The notes under the pieces are model-generated. The model had not been told where the DNA came from and did not search any database. It saw only the letters and a list, made by a program, of their open reading frames with translations. From a virus, in IMG/VR virus record IMGVR_UViG_3300009128_000148, positions 1 through 21,909 of that record: a stretch of DNA of 21,909 bases; one strand, given 5' to 3'. Made by a program: the position numbers and the translations under genes. Of the stretch, positions 6,007-21,603 are shown piece by piece; position 1 is the stretch's first letter, and each line of letters starts with the position of its first letter.

Positions 6007-6215
6007 GGCCAATTTATTGTCATTTGAAATTCTTTGTAAAATTTATCATACTCATATTCGTTGATACATTCTATTTTATAAATCTGTTCACCTAATACAT
6101 CAACACCACTAGGTACCTGAGTATACATTTTCTCTTTAGCTTCTTTCTCCGTATAGGCATCAATAACATACTCTTTCTTTATTGATTCTAATGTACTAAT
6201 AACCCACTTAGTCAT
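6003..6215 (-). CDS. Small unknown protein between glutamine synthetase and ThyX
   Basis: The 70-aa product begins MTKWVISTLESIKKEYVIDA and has no membrane segment or known motif; it looks like a small alpha/beta domain with charged and aromatic residues. Its ATG overlaps the glutamine synthetase stop by 8 nt and its stop overlaps the thyX start as ATGA, so it is translated in the same chain. GGAG lies 10 nt upstream. Function is unknown. Confidence 0.8.
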   Translation of the reverse strand: MTKWVISTLESIKKEYVIDAYTEKEAKEKMYTQVPSGVDVLGEQIYKIECINEYEYDKFYKEFQMTINWP

Positions 6216-7215
6216 CAATTAAAGTCTCCACAATGTGACGAATTACACGATAAGGATCTGCATTGGCGGCGGGTCGTCTATCTTCCAGATAACCATTCCA
6301 GTTATTGTTTATTGTAAAAACAGGAATGCGAATACTAGCACCCCTATCACTAACCCCATAGCTAAATTTTTTAATAGATTGTGTTTCATATTTACCAATC
6401 AACCTCTTTGCATTATCTGAACCGTACTCCTTAATGGCATTTTTATGTACCTTACCTAACTTTTCACAAATTGCCTCAAGCTTATCTTGACTGCCACGGT
6501 GTCTCATTTCATCATTAGAAAAGTTTGTATGCATACCAGAACCATTCCAATCACCAGACTGTGGTTTTGGTGCATAGTTAATAGTCACGCCATGTTTCTC
6601 TGCGATGCGTTGTAAAATATAACGAGCCATCCATAAATCATCTCCTGCACGAATACCTCTACCTAACACCTGAAATTCCCATTGCCCTAGTGCCACTTCT
6701 GCATTTGTTCCAGTGATACCAATGTTGGCGTTCATACAGGCTTCAGCATGACGGTCGACAATCTCACGACCAACCACATTGTTAGAACCTACACCACAAT
6801 AATAATCGCCCTGTGCTCTTGGTTTACCTTTCTCTGGCCAACCCAATGGGCGACCATCCTTATACATGAAATATTCTTGCTCAAAACCAAACCACCATTC
6901 ATCACTCACCAAGTTCTGACAATGCGTTCTGGTGTTTGATTCGTGTGGGTCAATACCATTATTATTCAGTACTTCACACATTACATAAGTGCCTTCTAAT
7001 CCTGGACTGGTTTGTGTTGCATCAGCTCGGATACGATCTATGGTACGATACTCAGCAACAGGATATAATATACAATCAGAATCATCTCCAGTAGCCTGTT
7101 GTGTAGATGAGCCATCAAAAGACCACATATCAACATACTCATCTATTTTTACTTTGCTTCTTAATGACTGTGTAGGTTTGTAACCATCAAGCCATACATA
7201 TTCTAATTTTCTCAT
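6208..7215 (-). CDS. glnA: Type II glutamine synthetase
   Basis: It joins ammonia and glutamate to glutamine using ATP. The 335-aa length fits the GSII (eukaryote-like) class rather than the roughly 470-aa bacterial GSI. All class II signatures are visible: WSFDGSST (31-38), FEQEY (111-115), YYCGVG (138-143), NAEVALGQWEFQ (171-182), NGSGMHTNF (224-232), GKYET (274-278), RGASIRIP (291-298) and EDRRPAANADP (311-321). The start is ATG 7215 in a TAATG overlap with the gene before, with AGGA close upstream; the longer frame to 7245 has no independent support. No glutamine riboswitch can precede it because its 5' flank is coding. GSII lacks the adenylylation control of GSI, so the enzyme may escape host nitrogen regulation (inference). 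Neighbours for deoxynucleotide supply suggest it feeds nucleotide synthesis. Confidence 0.94.
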   Translation of the reverse strand: MRKLEYVWLDGYKPTQSLRSKVKIDEYVDMWSFDGSSTQQATGDDSDCILYPVAEYRTIDRIRADATQTSPGLEGTYVMCEVLNNNGIDPHESNTRTHCQNLVSDEWWFGFEQEYFMYKDGRPLGWPEKGKPRAQGDYYCGVGSNNVVGREIVDRHAEACMNANIGITGTNAEVALGQWEFQVLGRGIRAGDDLWMARYILQRIAEKHGVTINYAPKPQSGDWNGSGMHTNFSNDEMRHRGSQDKLEAICEKLGKVHKNAIKEYGSDNAKRLIGKYETQSIKKFSYGVSDRGASIRIPVFTINNNWNGYLEDRRPAANADPYRVIRHIVETLIDD

Positions 7216-7472
7216 TATGTTCCTACCTTCTTTATGTATTTCCAATATTCTGGTTCATTGGGCCAGAATTCGTTTTTCATACGATACCACTGCCAGTCAC
7301 CATCACCACTTTCTGCTAACCAACCTTGTCTACTGTCATGCATTACAACTTTGACTGCTCGGTGTTCGCCAGTTTGTTCATTTTCTAAAACAACCTGCAT
7401 ACCTCGACGATAGACCATACCCTTCTCACCGAGGTCTTTTATTTTCTTGTAGTATTCATTACTCTTTATCAT
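7215..7472 (-). CDS. Small unknown protein upstream of glutamine synthetase
   Basis: The 85-aa product is rich in charged and aromatic residues (several Trp, Tyr and Glu near the C-terminus) and looks like a small beta-rich domain: GMVYRRGMQVVLENEQTGEH followed by VKVVMHDS. No family is recognised. It is joined to both neighbours by ATGA and TAATG overlaps. A regulatory or accessory role for glutamine synthetase is possible only from position. Confidence 0.8.
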   Translation of the reverse strand: MIKSNEYYKKIKDLGEKGMVYRRGMQVVLENEQTGEHRAVKVVMHDSRQGWLAESGDGDWQWYRMKNEFWPNEPEYWKYIKKVGT

Positions 7473-7885: not shown

Positions 7886-8138
7886 GGCTCAACTCGCCTC
7901 GCCAGTTTCTGTTGCGGTACTTCTTCTGGTTGTACCGTGAAGATAACTCATCGCTGAGTTCCTGAAGTTTAGGCAAACAGATATCGTTTGCCCATCGTTG
8001 AAGCTCGGCATTGTCATGCTCTAACTTCTTAATTTTTGCTTCTGCCTGCTCATTCTTATATGAGAGGTGAGCTATGCGTCTTTTCGCCTCATCAATATAA
8101 GATTCCTTTGGTGGTGCCAATACTTCTTTTTCTGTCAT
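7854..8138 (-). CDS. Coiled-coil protein, unknown
   Basis: The 94-aa product has a clear heptad-rich helix (about residues 15-65, LSYKNEQAEAKIKKLEHDNA and on) and a basic C-terminal end. No other domain is seen. The ATG overlaps the gene 59 stop as TAATG with AAGGAG eight nt upstream. Coiled-coil architecture suggests oligomerisation; function is unknown. Confidence 0.82.
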   Translation of the reverse strand: MTEKEVLAPPKESYIDEAKRRIAHLSYKNEQAEAKIKKLEHDNAELQRWANDICLPKLQELSDELSSRYNQKKYRNRNWRGELSRAREEGSKVY

Positions 8139-8719
8139 TAGAAATACTCCTTTACCGTGTTTAAAGTTATCCTCTTGAACCTTCTAACCGATACTTTCAT
8201 AAATGGTTCATAATCTTTTATTAATTTACTGACCTTTGGCCAAATAAATTTTTCTGTGATATCTTTATCAAATCTTTCTCTATACTGTAAGACTTTTTCA
8301 AGAATAACTAAAGTCTCTAACGAAATCTTTTTACCAAGATATGCCTTAACAAGTTTAGGATGATTTCCGTTATCACATTTAAATAGTATATCAAATTCGT
8401 GGGAAGATGTCAATAGTTTTTCTAAATCATTTTTATAAAAATAATGTAAACTCTGATTTATCTTCTTATGCTCTATCCAGTTTTTCTGTTCAAAGTCACC
8501 GATCCATTTTTTACCACGAATAAAGTTGGCAAGGTAGTAATCTATGATTTGTGGATCAGATAATTTTTTAGATAGCTTTGCAAATTTGAATTTGTCTTTT
8601 CGTTTCTCAAAAGATTCTAAAGTAGCACTAACTTTACCATTATACCTGTGAAAATCATAATCACCACCAAAATGAAGTTTTAGTGCCAGGTAATTTTGAT
8701 AGCACTCAAATTCGGTCAT
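8138..8719 (-). CDS. 59: gp59-like loader of replicative helicase
   Basis: The 193-aa protein aligns by eye with T4 gp59 (about 217 aa): RYNGKVSATLESFEKRKDKF and on to FIRGKKWIGD (about residues 25-75) corresponds to the T4 segment with KRRDKYFFQKLSEK and AWIGD. The later FDILFKCDNGNHPKLVKAYL region followed by ISLETLVILE corresponds to the second helical domain. In T4 it loads gp41 helicase on forks and recombination intermediates and binds gp32. The start at ATG 8719 is preferred over an in-frame TTG three codons upstream. It follows gene 33 directly, as in T4, which supports the call. Confidence 0.88.
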   Translation of the reverse strand: MTEFECYQNYLALKLHFGGDYDFHRYNGKVSATLESFEKRKDKFKFAKLSKKLSDPQIIDYYLANFIRGKKWIGDFEQKNWIEHKKINQSLHYFYKNDLEKLLTSSHEFDILFKCDNGNHPKLVKAYLGKKISLETLVILEKVLQYRERFDKDITEKFIWPKVSKLIKDYEPFMKVSVRRFKRITLNTVKEYF

Positions 8720-8724
8720 TAGAC

Positions 8725-8943
8725 TCAAAACAACGAACTCGTCTTGGGTAAGTAATTAAGTGCCTCAGCATCATACTGGATTTTCTCACGCATGGTCTTG
8801 TCGATCCATCGTGTAATCGTATGTGCCTCTAATTGATTTTGTTCGCAGTAATACATTACTGCTTCTAGGTGGGTTAGTCTTTTTTCTTTGACTAAATCTT
8901 CTATAATAACTGTGAATTTTTTAGGTGTTATTTTTGTTGCCAT
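8725..8943 (-). CDS. 33: gp33-like late-transcription co-activator
   Basis: The 72-aa product resembles the conserved core of T4 gp33: FTVIIEDLVKEKRLTHLEAV (10-29), then YYCEQNQLEAHTITRWI and EKIQYDAEALNYL, matching the T4 pattern FIIEKMVEE-x-x-x-SYLEA ... EKIQSEA. In T4 gp33 links RNA polymerase to the sliding clamp at late promoters. The T4 acidic N-terminal extension is missing and the end is SSLF rather than LDFLL, so clamp binding needs checking. It lies directly before gene 59, the T4 order. No ribosome binding site is obvious; the 3' end of the tmRNA region abuts the start. Presence of NATAAATA motifs elsewhere in the window is consistent with late control. Confidence 0.8.
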   Translation of the reverse strand: MATKITPKKFTVIIEDLVKEKRLTHLEAVMYYCEQNQLEAHTITRWIDKTMREKIQYDAEALNYLPKTSSLF

Positions 8944-9089
8944 AATATTTTGTAAAGGTGAACACGCCTATCTCTGGTTCGGCGGTTCGTCAGGTGTGGT
9001 GTACTCGGCAGAGACCACTTTTGTTCTTACTCATAATAGATAGATGGGCCCGTTGGATATCAAGGCGGTGCCCATGCCCCGTGAAGAAA

Positions 9090-9134
9090 TTACGCTGCTA
9101 GCGCATAGTCCTCAAAGTAATAGTCGTCATTTGC
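9090..9134 (-). other. ssrA: tmRNA tag reading frame (ANDDYYFEDYALAA)
   Basis: Resume codon GCA at 9134-9132, 14 codons and a TAA at 9092-9090. The peptide ends ALAA, the signal read by ClpXP/ClpAP-type proteases. With the charged alanine the full tag is 15 residues, longer than the E. coli tag and carrying two extra acidic/aromatic stretches. A phage ClpP is encoded at 21031-21603. Confidence 0.9.
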
Positions 9135-9202
9135 GGCTATTGTTATGTAGACTTATCCTCTTGTAAAATTTCATTCGCTCCGTCGAAATCCGTTTCACCC
9201 CC

Positions 9203-9315
9203 ATGTTCGTTTGTTAGTAGTTGCTTTTGCAACTCCCAATTTCGTTCTGGTGGTAATGGACCCCACCCAATACTTCTACTCCATTCGTTTTCGGTATAAT
9301 AATACCAAGCGGGTT
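9203..9315 (-). other. Intervening segment of the permuted tmRNA precursor
   Basis: This 113-nt stretch joins the acceptor 3' CCA to the 5' end of the coding piece and should be removed during maturation. It holds a perfect 6-bp hairpin (9219-9234, AAAA loop on the - strand) and a second 5-bp hairpin near 9296-9309. Confidence 0.8.
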
Positions 9316-9388
9316 TGGTGGAGGTGCCGGGAATTGAACCCGGGTCCGCAACGCCTACTTTTTTACCGTCGTCAGATTTGTCCACGAA
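9316..9388 (-). ncRNA. ssrA: tmRNA acceptor piece
   Basis: It carries the T-arm and the encoded CCA. The 5' end is not precise; it starts after the stop of the beta-barrel gene (9399-9397). It contains a GACGACGGTAAAAAAGTAGG stretch that I cannot fold with confidence. Confidence 0.82.
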
Positions 9389-9390
9389 AT

Positions 9391-9398
9391 TATTTATT
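9391..9398 (-). promoter_or_regulatory. T4-late-like motif AATAAATA before the tmRNA
   Basis: - strand AATAAATA immediately after the stop codon of the beta-barrel gene and just before the acceptor piece. It is a candidate start for tmRNA-gene 33-59 transcription. No sigma70-type hexamers were found here. Confidence 0.35.
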
Positions 9399-9969
9399 AG
9401 AACGAGATGTTTACAGATACCCCTGCTGTTGCGTCACCTCGTTCCCAATCAGTGTCAAATGGTACAGTGATGTTTGGTACTATTGTTGTGTTGTCAGCAA
9501 CGGACCAAGAGTAACCAAAACCAAGTTCTGCACCTGTATAATCAGTTTCATTAATATCAAACTTGAAAGTAGAGCTTGCATCAATACCAGCGATGCCGTA
9601 AGATACCTTCATTTCACCATCAAACTGCGAGTCTGTGACATTCCAATCGACAGAAGGAGCAATACTCATGCCCCACATATCCACGGATGTATCAATACCG
9701 ACTACATTATCATCATCAGCGTGATGGTCCAAAGATACTGAACCAGATAGGCCACCCATAAGTGATGTGCCATATGAGATTCCAATATCTACGGTGTCAC
9801 TATTCTTTAAAGAAATACCACCTACCCCAACGGTAGTTTCTCCACCGTCCTGGTCATAACCAACCGATACACCACCGGCAGTCACGGACATATCGTGTTT
9901 CCAGTCGGTGTCTGCTGCTGATGCAGCCAACGGTAGAGCACAAAATAGTGCGATTAAAGTCTTATTCAT
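9397..9969 (-). CDS. Secreted outer-membrane beta-barrel-like protein
   Basis: The 190-aa product starts with a typical signal peptide (MNKTLIALFCALPLAASAAD, cleavage likely after ASA). The mature part alternates polar and hydrophobic residues in short strands (for example VSVGYDQDGG, VGVGGISL, MGGLSGSVSLDH) and ends in VSVNISF. A C-terminal Phe after alternating residues is the usual assembly signal of outer-membrane barrels. It is acidic and small (about eight strands expected). AGGAG lies before the ATG; a rho-independent terminator just upstream isolates it from the previous gene, and a GATAAATA motif overlaps that region. A phage-encoded outer-membrane protein could alter receptors, block superinfection or be a host-derived porin relative; which one is not decidable. 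Confidence 0.75.
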   Translation of the reverse strand: MNKTLIALFCALPLAASAADTDWKHDMSVTAGGVSVGYDQDGGETTVGVGGISLKNSDTVDIGISYGTSLMGGLSGSVSLDHHADDDNVVGIDTSVDMWGMSIAPSVDWNVTDSQFDGEMKVSYGIAGIDASSTFKFDINETDYTGAELGFGYSWSVADNTTIVPNITVPFDTDWERGDATAGVSVNISF

Positions 9970-12117: not shown

Positions 12118-12358
12118 AAATGTCGATGGTTGACCCAGGATTATTATCTCTTATTCTCCGTAATGTATCTTTCCAACCTTCATCTGTGCCATGGCCACCA
12201 CTATGGCCTGAATGATCTCTACCACTAATAATAGAATTGGGGTTGGGAACAAATACATGAACCCAACCCTCTTGTTTAAGCACTTCCATATCAGCAATAG
12301 TACAACTGATATCTTCTGCTTCTCCCGTTACGGGATTTACCATACGGTAGTTAGGCAT
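12116..12358 (-). CDS. FmdB-like small phage protein without zinc ribbon
   Basis: The 80-aa product starts MPNYRMVNPVTGEAEDISCT and ends DEGWKDTLRRIRDNNPGSTI. This frame (MP-x-Y-x-x-x-N-x-x-TGE ... GW/GF-K-D-x-L-x-x-I ... PGS) is typical of short phage proteins related to FmdB N-termini. The CxxC pairs of true FmdB proteins are absent and only one Cys remains. A His/Gly-rich middle (GRDHSGHSGGHG) could bind metal. The start at ATG 12358 forms a TAATG overlap with the lipoprotein gene; a longer frame to 12376 is inside that gene. Confidence 0.72.
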   Translation of the reverse strand: MPNYRMVNPVTGEAEDISCTIADMEVLKQEGWVHVFVPNPNSIISGRDHSGHSGGHGTDEGWKDTLRRIRDNNPGSTIDI

Positions 12359-12828
12359 TACTGTTGAATCTTCCAACTACCGTCTGCCTGTCGGCAAGCA
12401 GTACCATAAGCCTGTTGAGGTTTACCACCAATGGTTACGGTTTGTGTAAACTCACGGCAAGGTGTACCGTTAGATGCTACAACTGTTCGTGTTGGAGTTG
12501 TGTACCCACTATTACCAGTATTAGGATTACGCCAAGAACTTGAACTGTTATCAGGCGCCTGTTCAAGAGCAGCCTGGAAACTCTGGCCCATCATAAGACG
12601 GTCACGCTCATCCAACTGTTGACCAATCTGATTGCCCAACATCGCACCAAGACCGATACCAAGAACTGTCCAGATTTCCTTGTTACTTGAGTTCTGCCCA
12701 AGACCGTAGGCCAGACCACCACCTAAGAGAGCACCAGCAGCAGTACCGGTATCTTGTTTTGAATATGTACCAGCACAGCCAGTCATAAGGGCTGCGGACA
12801 TTACGGTTGCGATTACTAACTTATTCAT
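12358..12828 (-). CDS. Lipoprotein, 17-kDa surface antigen-like, glycine zipper
   Basis: The 156-aa product has a lipoprotein signal peptide with lipobox LMTGC; Cys18 is the predicted lipidated residue. Residues 28-70 (TGTAAGALLGGGLAYGLGQN, then GIGLGAMLGNQIGQQLDERD) form a glycine-zipper segment as in the rickettsial 17-kDa antigen family. The C-terminal domain (PCREFTQTVTIGGKPQQAYG, then TACRQADGSWKI) matches the surface-antigen domain with its paired cysteines. Such proteins sit in the outer membrane of alphaproteobacteria and relatives. It looks host-derived. It has its own promoter, and AGGAG is 6 nt before the ATG. A role in altering the infected cell surface, for example superinfection exclusion, is inference. 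Confidence 0.87.
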   Translation of the reverse strand: MNKLVIATVMSAALMTGCAGTYSKQDTGTAAGALLGGGLAYGLGQNSSNKEIWTVLGIGLGAMLGNQIGQQLDERDRLMMGQSFQAALEQAPDNSSSSWRNPNTGNSGYTTPTRTVVASNGTPCREFTQTVTIGGKPQQAYGTACRQADGSWKIQQ

Positions 12829-21024: not shown

Positions 21025-21032
21025 TATTTATC
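21025..21032 (-). promoter_or_regulatory. T4-late-like motif GATAAATA upstream of the 489-aa gene
   Basis: - strand GATAAATA, 19 nt before the ATG, overlapping the clpP TGA stop. The geometry puts the expected start just upstream of AGGAG. Confidence 0.45.
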
Positions 21033-21603
21033 AGTATATTGTTTTTACAGAATCACATAAATTCAATTTTTTTGCCTCTTTTGCTGAAAGGTATACATCT
21101 TCTGGTGGCAATAATTTTTCTCGTATCCTATCTTCATTTAAACCAGTGCATTTTTTATAGTGATTTATCATTCGTTCAGTAGATAATTCAAACTCTACTA
21201 CTTGAGCAAACAGTTCATGTTCTTTACCCCATGACATCCAACTATACTGATGAGATAATATGGAAGTATTTGGTGTTAGAATACGATGGCCTGGTTCACC
21301 AGCAATGAACATCAATAGACCGCATGATGCAATAACACCCAACCCTACTGTGTAAACAGGAATAGTTGAGGCCTTCATTACATCAATTAAAGCAAACGCT
21401 GATGGTACATCACCACCATTACTACAAATCATTAGTTTGAGATATGGTCTTTTCTTTTTCTCTATATTTTGTTTTAGAATAAACTCTATCGCATCTTTAC
21501 TACTTGATTCATCAACATCACTCATAAACAAATGAATACCTGACTCGTACAAATCGGCATCAGTTGTTGTTGAGTTATCGGTTTCATATATCTTTTTTGC
21601 CAT
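21031..21603 (-). CDS. clpP: ClpP-like serine protease
   Basis: The 190-aa product is the ClpP fold: ICSNGGDVPSAFALIDVM (59-76), catalytic Ser93 in GVIASCGLLMFIAG, catalytic His118 in SILSHQYS and Asp169 in PPEDVYLSAKEAKKLNLCDS. All three triad residues are present. ClpP forms the proteolytic barrel used by ClpX or ClpA, which also degrade tmRNA-tagged peptides; a phage copy could work with host ATPases or process virion proteins. GGAG is 7 nt before the ATG; the start overlaps the upstream gene by 20 nt. Confidence 0.9.
   Translation of the reverse strand: MAKKIYETDNSTTTDADLYESGIHLFMSDVDESSSKDAIEFILKQNIEKKKRPYLKLMICSNGGDVPSAFALIDVMKASTIPVYTVGLGVIASCGLLMFIAGEPGHRILTPNTSILSHQYSWMSWGKEHELFAQVVEFELSTERMINHYKKCTGLNEDRIREKLLPPEDVYLSAKEAKKLNLCDSVKTIY

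Follow-up and report, generated by a model that had tools for sequence, protein, structure and literature searches.

In the 21.9-kb viral contig analysed here (hereafter the window), we found a permuted, two-piece gene for tmRNA, the RNA by which stalled ribosomes are released; its intervening segment, absent from the mature tmRNA, encodes a conserved peptide core. Codon statistics of homologous spacers make it very likely that this core is under selection at the protein level, and the core belongs to a small phage protein family that is repeatedly associated with permuted tmRNA genes. We consider it rather probable that the locus produces a dual-use precursor, namely, a host-compatible tmRNA and a tmRNA-linked small phage protein.

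The tmRNA gene as a whole was assigned to positions 8999-9408 of the minus strand by ARAGORN (as tmRNA*) and was also recognised by Rfam model RF04321. In the covariance-model search, the latter model (tmRNA_permuted) aligned end to end (model positions 1-213) with positions 9378-9090 of the minus strand at 93 bits (E = 3.8e-17), well above its gathering score of 47, which bears out the original prediction of a permuted tmRNA with the acceptor half first, all parts being on the minus strand. The fold z-score of the gene is -3.1. According to direct reading of the sequence and the RF04321 alignment, the acceptor half covers positions 9316-9385, its 5' end being presumptive, and comprises the T-arm (9343-9327; stem CCGGG/CCCGG, loop TTCAATT), the acceptor 3' strand CACCTCC (9326-9320) with discriminator A, and CCA (9318-9316). 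The 113-nt intervening segment (9203-9315) separates it from the coding half, which up to the tag stop spans 9090-9202 (ARAGORN, RF04321) and includes the acceptor 5' strand GGGGGTG (9202-9196) and the tag ORF (9134-9090). The predicted acceptor pairing (7/7) across the 113-nt spacer, the G3-U70 pair, the encoded CCA, and the tag frame were all recovered. The tag deduced by ARAGORN is ANDDYYFEDYALAA, followed by a stop, and its frame has a resume codon and a hydrophobic end terminating in ALAA.

Comparison with related phage sequences points to a functional molecule. Pairs 1-4 of the T-stem show compensatory changes among relatives (distinct pairs, e.g., GC, CG, AT, TA), G3-U70 is present in all eight distinct relative sequences, and the tag ends are kept (..YALAA, ..YRLAA). 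The full complement of conserved elements, which had been taken to argue for function, thus agrees with an apparently functional gene, and we predict with high confidence that the locus is a working phage tmRNA of a known kind. The same features bear on the possibility that, instead of working as a tmRNA, the molecule obstructs trans-translation of the host as a decoy or inhibitor, similar to the tag-less form of phage DS6A (PMC11915505), with the spacer ORF being incidental. This appears improbable, as the window tmRNA retains an ALAA-ending tag frame, T-arm covariation, G3-U70, and CCA, and the tag ends are conserved among its relatives.

The genes recognised in the window encode gp32 ssDNA-binding protein, ThyX, glutamine synthetase, dCMP deaminase, gp59, gp33, an outer membrane protein (OMP)-like protein, PDDEXK nuclease, PhoH, cell-wall hydrolase, RNase H, and ClpP; nearly all convincing genes, as identified with Pfam and PHROGs, are on the minus strand. 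The downstream neighbour of the tmRNA gene encodes a gp33-like late-transcription coactivator (8725-8943, minus strand; PHROG 254, E = 1.9e-18) and is adjoined by the gene of a gp59-like helicase loader (8138-8728, minus strand; PHROG 269, E = 2.2e-54). Upstream of the tmRNA gene, on the same strand, lies an OMP beta-barrel-like ORF (9397-9969; PF13505, E = 1.8e-4, which is under the curated cut-off), so that the predicted location between an OMP-type gene and gene 33 of a T4-like phage was correct. This ORF is kept upstream of the tmRNA in relatives. The glutamine synthetase gene of the window (6208-7245, minus strand; PF00120/PF03951) has counterparts downstream of gp59 in about 30 related loci, with identities of 77-100%.

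The presence of a permuted tmRNA in such a phage had been regarded as unusual, a view that finds no support here. Two-piece tmRNAs of marine phages have been described already: among 133 unique phage tmRNA structures, 53 were of the two-piece type, and marine or aquatic phages accounted for 50 of the latter (PMC9004378). Of 13 related viral contigs gathered by us through gp59, 12 gave an above-threshold RF04321 match at the corresponding site, i.e., all that could be assessed, the remaining contig (L010) starting too close to gp33. The alpha-type model RF01849 also matches relatives (106.7 bits for L137 and 50.3 bits for L007, against a cut-off of 50); among the matches listed for the window, none is to this model. 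A search with the T-arm pattern retrieved at least 120 viral stretches; ARAGORN classified 61 loci as permuted, and a gp33 homologue is close by in about 30. The permuted tmRNA of the window therefore represents a kind already known among phages, and the novelty of the locus is its protein-coding spacer.

A close described counterpart is Melnitz, a Methylophilales phage (MZ577097; PMC9004378), in which ssrA is also directly upstream of the gene of a gp33-like coactivator, within a block shared with the window (PhoH, nuclease, ssrA, gp33, gp59, thyX, gp32), and in which the 14-aa tag likewise ends with DYALAA. The differences concern, among others, the glutamine riboswitch (RF01739) that follows the tmRNA in Melnitz; in the window no such riboswitch was found, either at E up to 1 in the region 8850-9550 or at the gathering score in the window as a whole. 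This riboswitch is described as common but not defining (PMC9004378). Conversely, the window carries a glutamine synthetase gene, while Melnitz has none according to its authors (PMC9004378). The Melnitz spacer contains an unrelated ORF with its own Shine-Dalgarno sequence and ATG (MFKWLSKTRL...; MFKWLSKTRLVVITRD... after GGAG), and no CDS is annotated there. Pelagibacter phage HTVC008M, a related T4-like phage (NC_020484, 145161-145370; L140, L159), also has a permuted tmRNA upstream of gp33, which is missing from the annotation of its record; the HTVC008M spacer is 49 nt long and does not encode the peptide, and its tag is ANFNEYALAA. Permuted tmRNAs of alphaproteobacterial chromosomes (RF04321 / RF01849) share with that of the window the gene order and the tRNA-like domain, and their tags are also of 14 aa (e.g., ANDNVASQDYALAA in L157). 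Their spacers, however, are short (median of 32 nt in the 30 best-scoring genomes). Unusually long tags of 29-30 aa were predicted in certain other phage tmRNAs (L105, L136, L292, L309, and similar; e.g., ANDKALDNVSFVNFGEQKDVRLSEDFALAA and AKASTGEVTVSGKNVKFSARTAKAESFAV); some of them have ends unlike ALAA and may be ARAGORN frame errors.

In the window, an 80-aa ORF runs from GTG at 9385 to a stop at 9143 (minus strand), covering the acceptor half, the spacer, and the start of the coding half. The T-arm is read in this ORF as ..VADPGSIPGTSTK, and the stop is located 8 nt ahead of the tag codons. The other two frames of the spacer both contain stops. Spacers of relatives share with that of the window a common peptide core, (W/Y)YYTxxEWSRxGxxGxxPxERN, and differ in their N-terminal inserts; in the window, the core is YYYTENEWSRSIGWGPLPPERN (9239-9304, minus strand). 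For 35 unique cores, each of 22 codons, the in-frame pN/pS was 0.28, as opposed to 1.3 when either of the remaining frames was read, and the three codon positions varied at 0.24/0.20/0.45. The synonymous sites are near saturation (pS of 0.73, with pN of about 0.2). As this set had been largely recovered with the peptide itself, the test was repeated on nine sequences found only through gp59 or the T-arm pattern, with a similar outcome: pN/pS of 0.32 in frame versus 1.17 and 1.65 in the other frames, with none of 500 column shuffles reaching so low a value. Conservation of the spacer solely as RNA was rejected on these codon statistics.

The alternative that the open frame is non-coding altogether, conserved on account of the structure of the RNA or of recent shared ancestry, with the tmRNA as the sole product, seems to us very improbable. 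The acceptor-half part of the frame does show little coding constraint (pN/pS of 0.70), and the conserved GTG could be a transcription start only. Nevertheless, the low pN relative to pS and the codon-position pattern of the core are absent in the other frames, and homologues of the peptide exist as free-standing genes initiated with ATG.

How the core would be translated in the window is less certain. In each of the motif-bearing spacers for which delimitation regardless of frame was feasible (35 unique spacers without stops, of at least nine insert lengths), the motif was in the frame of the T-arm, which is expected if translation passes through the T-arm and not otherwise. The frame-blind extraction missed those nested members that have a Shine-Dalgarno sequence and ATG of their own. 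Among 45 nested relatives, an in-frame GTG is positioned exactly 23 codons ahead of the CCA boundary in 43; the members of this set were chosen as in-frame, and the claim on the frame is therefore drawn from the frame-blind extraction. In the window, an ATAAATA box resembling T4 late promoters (9391-9397, minus strand) is found 5 nt ahead of the GTG, overlapped by the stop codon of the OMP-like ORF, and ATAAATA precedes the GTG by 4-6 nt in 41 of 42 nested relatives. All nine ATAAATA boxes of the window are on the coding strand, and their number is not above that expected by chance. Late promoters of T4-like phages have a TATAAATA-type box, with transcription starting about six bases after it. 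Such spacing would place the 5' end of the RNA at or beside the GTG, which would then be either a leaderless start or the mere end of the RNA. Leaderless GUG starts are usually weak. No ATG, GTG, or TTG in the ORF frame is present ahead of the core in the spacer of the window. The weak coding signal of the acceptor-half stretch leaves a GTG start plausible only; on the sequence data, we regard the chances that the 80-aa ORF is translated from GTG 9385 as evenly balanced, and the GTG may be conserved merely as the 5' end of the RNA.

The peptide core is a member of a small-protein family defined here by the pattern YYYT-EW-RLG-GPLPxERN, the conserved core of which is subject to purifying selection at the codon level. 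A core profile matched 176 viral loci and a profile of free-standing members matched 145, 80 loci being retained from each search. No credible match to this family was found in Pfam, PHROGs, or PDB (including a PDB profile search), and tblastn of the peptide against cultured phage records gave matches at chance level only; by these searches, it is a previously undescribed family of small phage proteins. No homologues were detected in 398 Pseudomonadota genomes, in a search run without a positive control. AlphaFold yielded no confident fold for the free-standing family (pLDDT of 66).

Members of the family occur in three arrangements. In the marine T4-like group, which includes the window, they are nested within the tmRNA gene in the T-arm frame. 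In others (L202, L211, L305; e.g., CCAAAAGGAGATTTAATG), the nested gene has its own Shine-Dalgarno sequence and ATG right after CCA. The third arrangement is a free-standing gene, which often directly follows a gene for tRNA-Met or tRNA-Ala and precedes a permuted tmRNA by 83-900 nt. Of the assessable free-standing genes, about 41 of 51 have a permuted tmRNA in the same locus as detected by ARAGORN, nested members with their own ATG being counted in; ten tmRNAs in these contigs scored above the Rfam cut-off. About ten assessable free-standing members have no tmRNA nearby, and neither do larger motif-bearing proteins (L225, L226). In 32 of 40 free-standing genes (of L259-L338), the 20 nt ahead of the ATG include a TAAATA box (at 5-8 nt in 31 and at 2 nt in one); the corresponding figure for the other ORFs of these loci is 26 of 326. 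The genes with this box usually lack a Shine-Dalgarno sequence. Together with the proximity of the box to the ATG, this suggests leaderless late transcripts. The gene neighbourhood is consistent with a role of the peptide in trans-translation, which we put forward tentatively, as a possibility that falls somewhat short of an even chance.

Protein-coding potential in the spacers is not confined to this family. When phage spacers were dereplicated and those shorter than 70 nt or with the family were set aside, 34 remained, of which 11 contain a Shine-Dalgarno sequence near CCA and an ORF covering the spacer, against 2.7 expected from 200 dinucleotide shuffles (sd 1.6, max 8), while no such ORF was found in 24 spacers of alphaproteobacterial chromosomes. 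The spacers concerned are those of L047, L092, L095, L098, L135, L269, L271, L272, L273, L322, and Melnitz (L137); their ORFs, e.g., MENLILLVLIVVLNVYWVYSLVTYDWSNFEKDQEQAKKDFF in L092 and MFENWHWVYIWGIIVFVNY... in L047 with a relative in L098, are unrelated to the peptide family, and several apparently encode membrane peptides. An unusually long tmRNA spacer of 232 nt with an ATG-started ORF, devoid of a Shine-Dalgarno sequence, was observed in one alphaproteobacterial genome (L368; G102:C36:18700-19700); this tmRNA could be a phage-derived copy. In the literature, one permuted tmRNA with tRNA-Ala in its intervening sequence and another with a repetitive element have been reported, neither with protein genes (PMC11915505). 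The former of the two (GCA-2688965) resembles the permuted tmRNA of the window in having a gene inside the intervening sequence, but the inserted gene is a tRNA, and the case is a single, nominally archaeal one. No protein-coding intervening sequence of a permuted tmRNA was found in the literature searched, which covered few subscription journals.

The diversity of these ORFs is also what would be expected if the window encoded an ordinary two-piece tmRNA whose spacer is, within a tightly packed genome, a tolerant site for unrelated small genes carried on the same transcript, with no role in ribosome rescue. The existence of peptide homologues without a nearby tmRNA and the length of phage spacers (median of 97 nt, n = 125, related sequences included, versus 32 nt in the sampled alphaproteobacterial chromosomes) are in line with this explanation, which we judge doubtful and yet far from negligible. 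It accounts poorly for the recurrence of one family beside or inside permuted tmRNAs, in varied arrangements and in freshwater as well as marine groups of phages, which exceeds what random cargo would lead one to expect.

The original prediction also named a phage ClpP as a possible destination of tagged products, and a clpP gene is indeed present in the window (21031-21603, minus strand; PF00574). Of the 61 other phage loci with a permuted tmRNA, nine encode a close ClpP homologue about 1-2.2 kb downstream of it, whereas none of 26 one-piece loci does; the homologues in the nine loci (L092, L129, L080, L081, L075, L126, L120, L033, L017) show 55-62% identity, and several of these loci are arranged as tmRNA-clpP-gp33. 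Routing of tagged products to the phage ClpP thus has modest support from synteny. A search for an SmpB gene, in which the control worked, gave none in the window, the contig of L012, Melnitz, or HTVC008M, and the phage tmRNA would therefore rely on SmpB of the host. The comparison of the tag with candidate host tags singled out no host: by the pattern used, no genome of the collection has a tag of the ANDDxYFxDYALAA type, and a looser pattern retrieved mostly one-piece tmRNAs of gammaproteobacteria and two permuted ones of alphaproteobacteria. A 17-kDa-surface-antigen-like protein of the window (12358-12828, minus strand) is 59% identical over 99 aa to a protein of an alphaproteobacterial MAG locus (L157), where about 5.6 kb separate the counterpart from the chromosomal tmRNA; this likeness may hint at an alphaproteobacterial host.

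From the computed tmRNA, synteny, core selection, and family linkage, we infer the following course of transcription, processing, GTG initiation, and peptide action. A processed transcript would yield a two-piece alanyl tmRNA working with SmpB and proteases of the host, while an unprocessed one would serve as mRNA for a small protein, with the intervening segment specifying its core. In the lineage of the window, the GTG with which the transcript begins, immediately past the late-promoter-like box, would be the most likely start of translation, which would then continue across the T-arm to the spacer. Elsewhere among phages, the peptide would be produced from its own Shine-Dalgarno sequence and ATG in the spacer or from a free-standing gene just upstream. 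The peptide may assist or modulate trans-translation. As a broader proposal, which we advance with reservation and hold to be possible rather than probable, a second protein gene would be common in the spacers of phage permuted tmRNAs, and in the case of the window, with its frame leading from the RNA 5' end via the T-arm, one precursor would become either a tmRNA or a protein acting with or on trans-translation, with processing as the switch.

Permuted tmRNAs are described as lacking the intervening sequence in their mature form, and conserved protein coding in this segment has no precedent in the literature searched. Standard annotation overlooks both products, as illustrated by the unannotated tmRNA of HTVC008M and the Melnitz spacer without an annotated CDS. 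If the proposed relationship is true, the peptide would represent a phage-encoded factor connected with ribosome rescue and would give a concrete starting point for explaining the presence of tmRNA in lytic phages.
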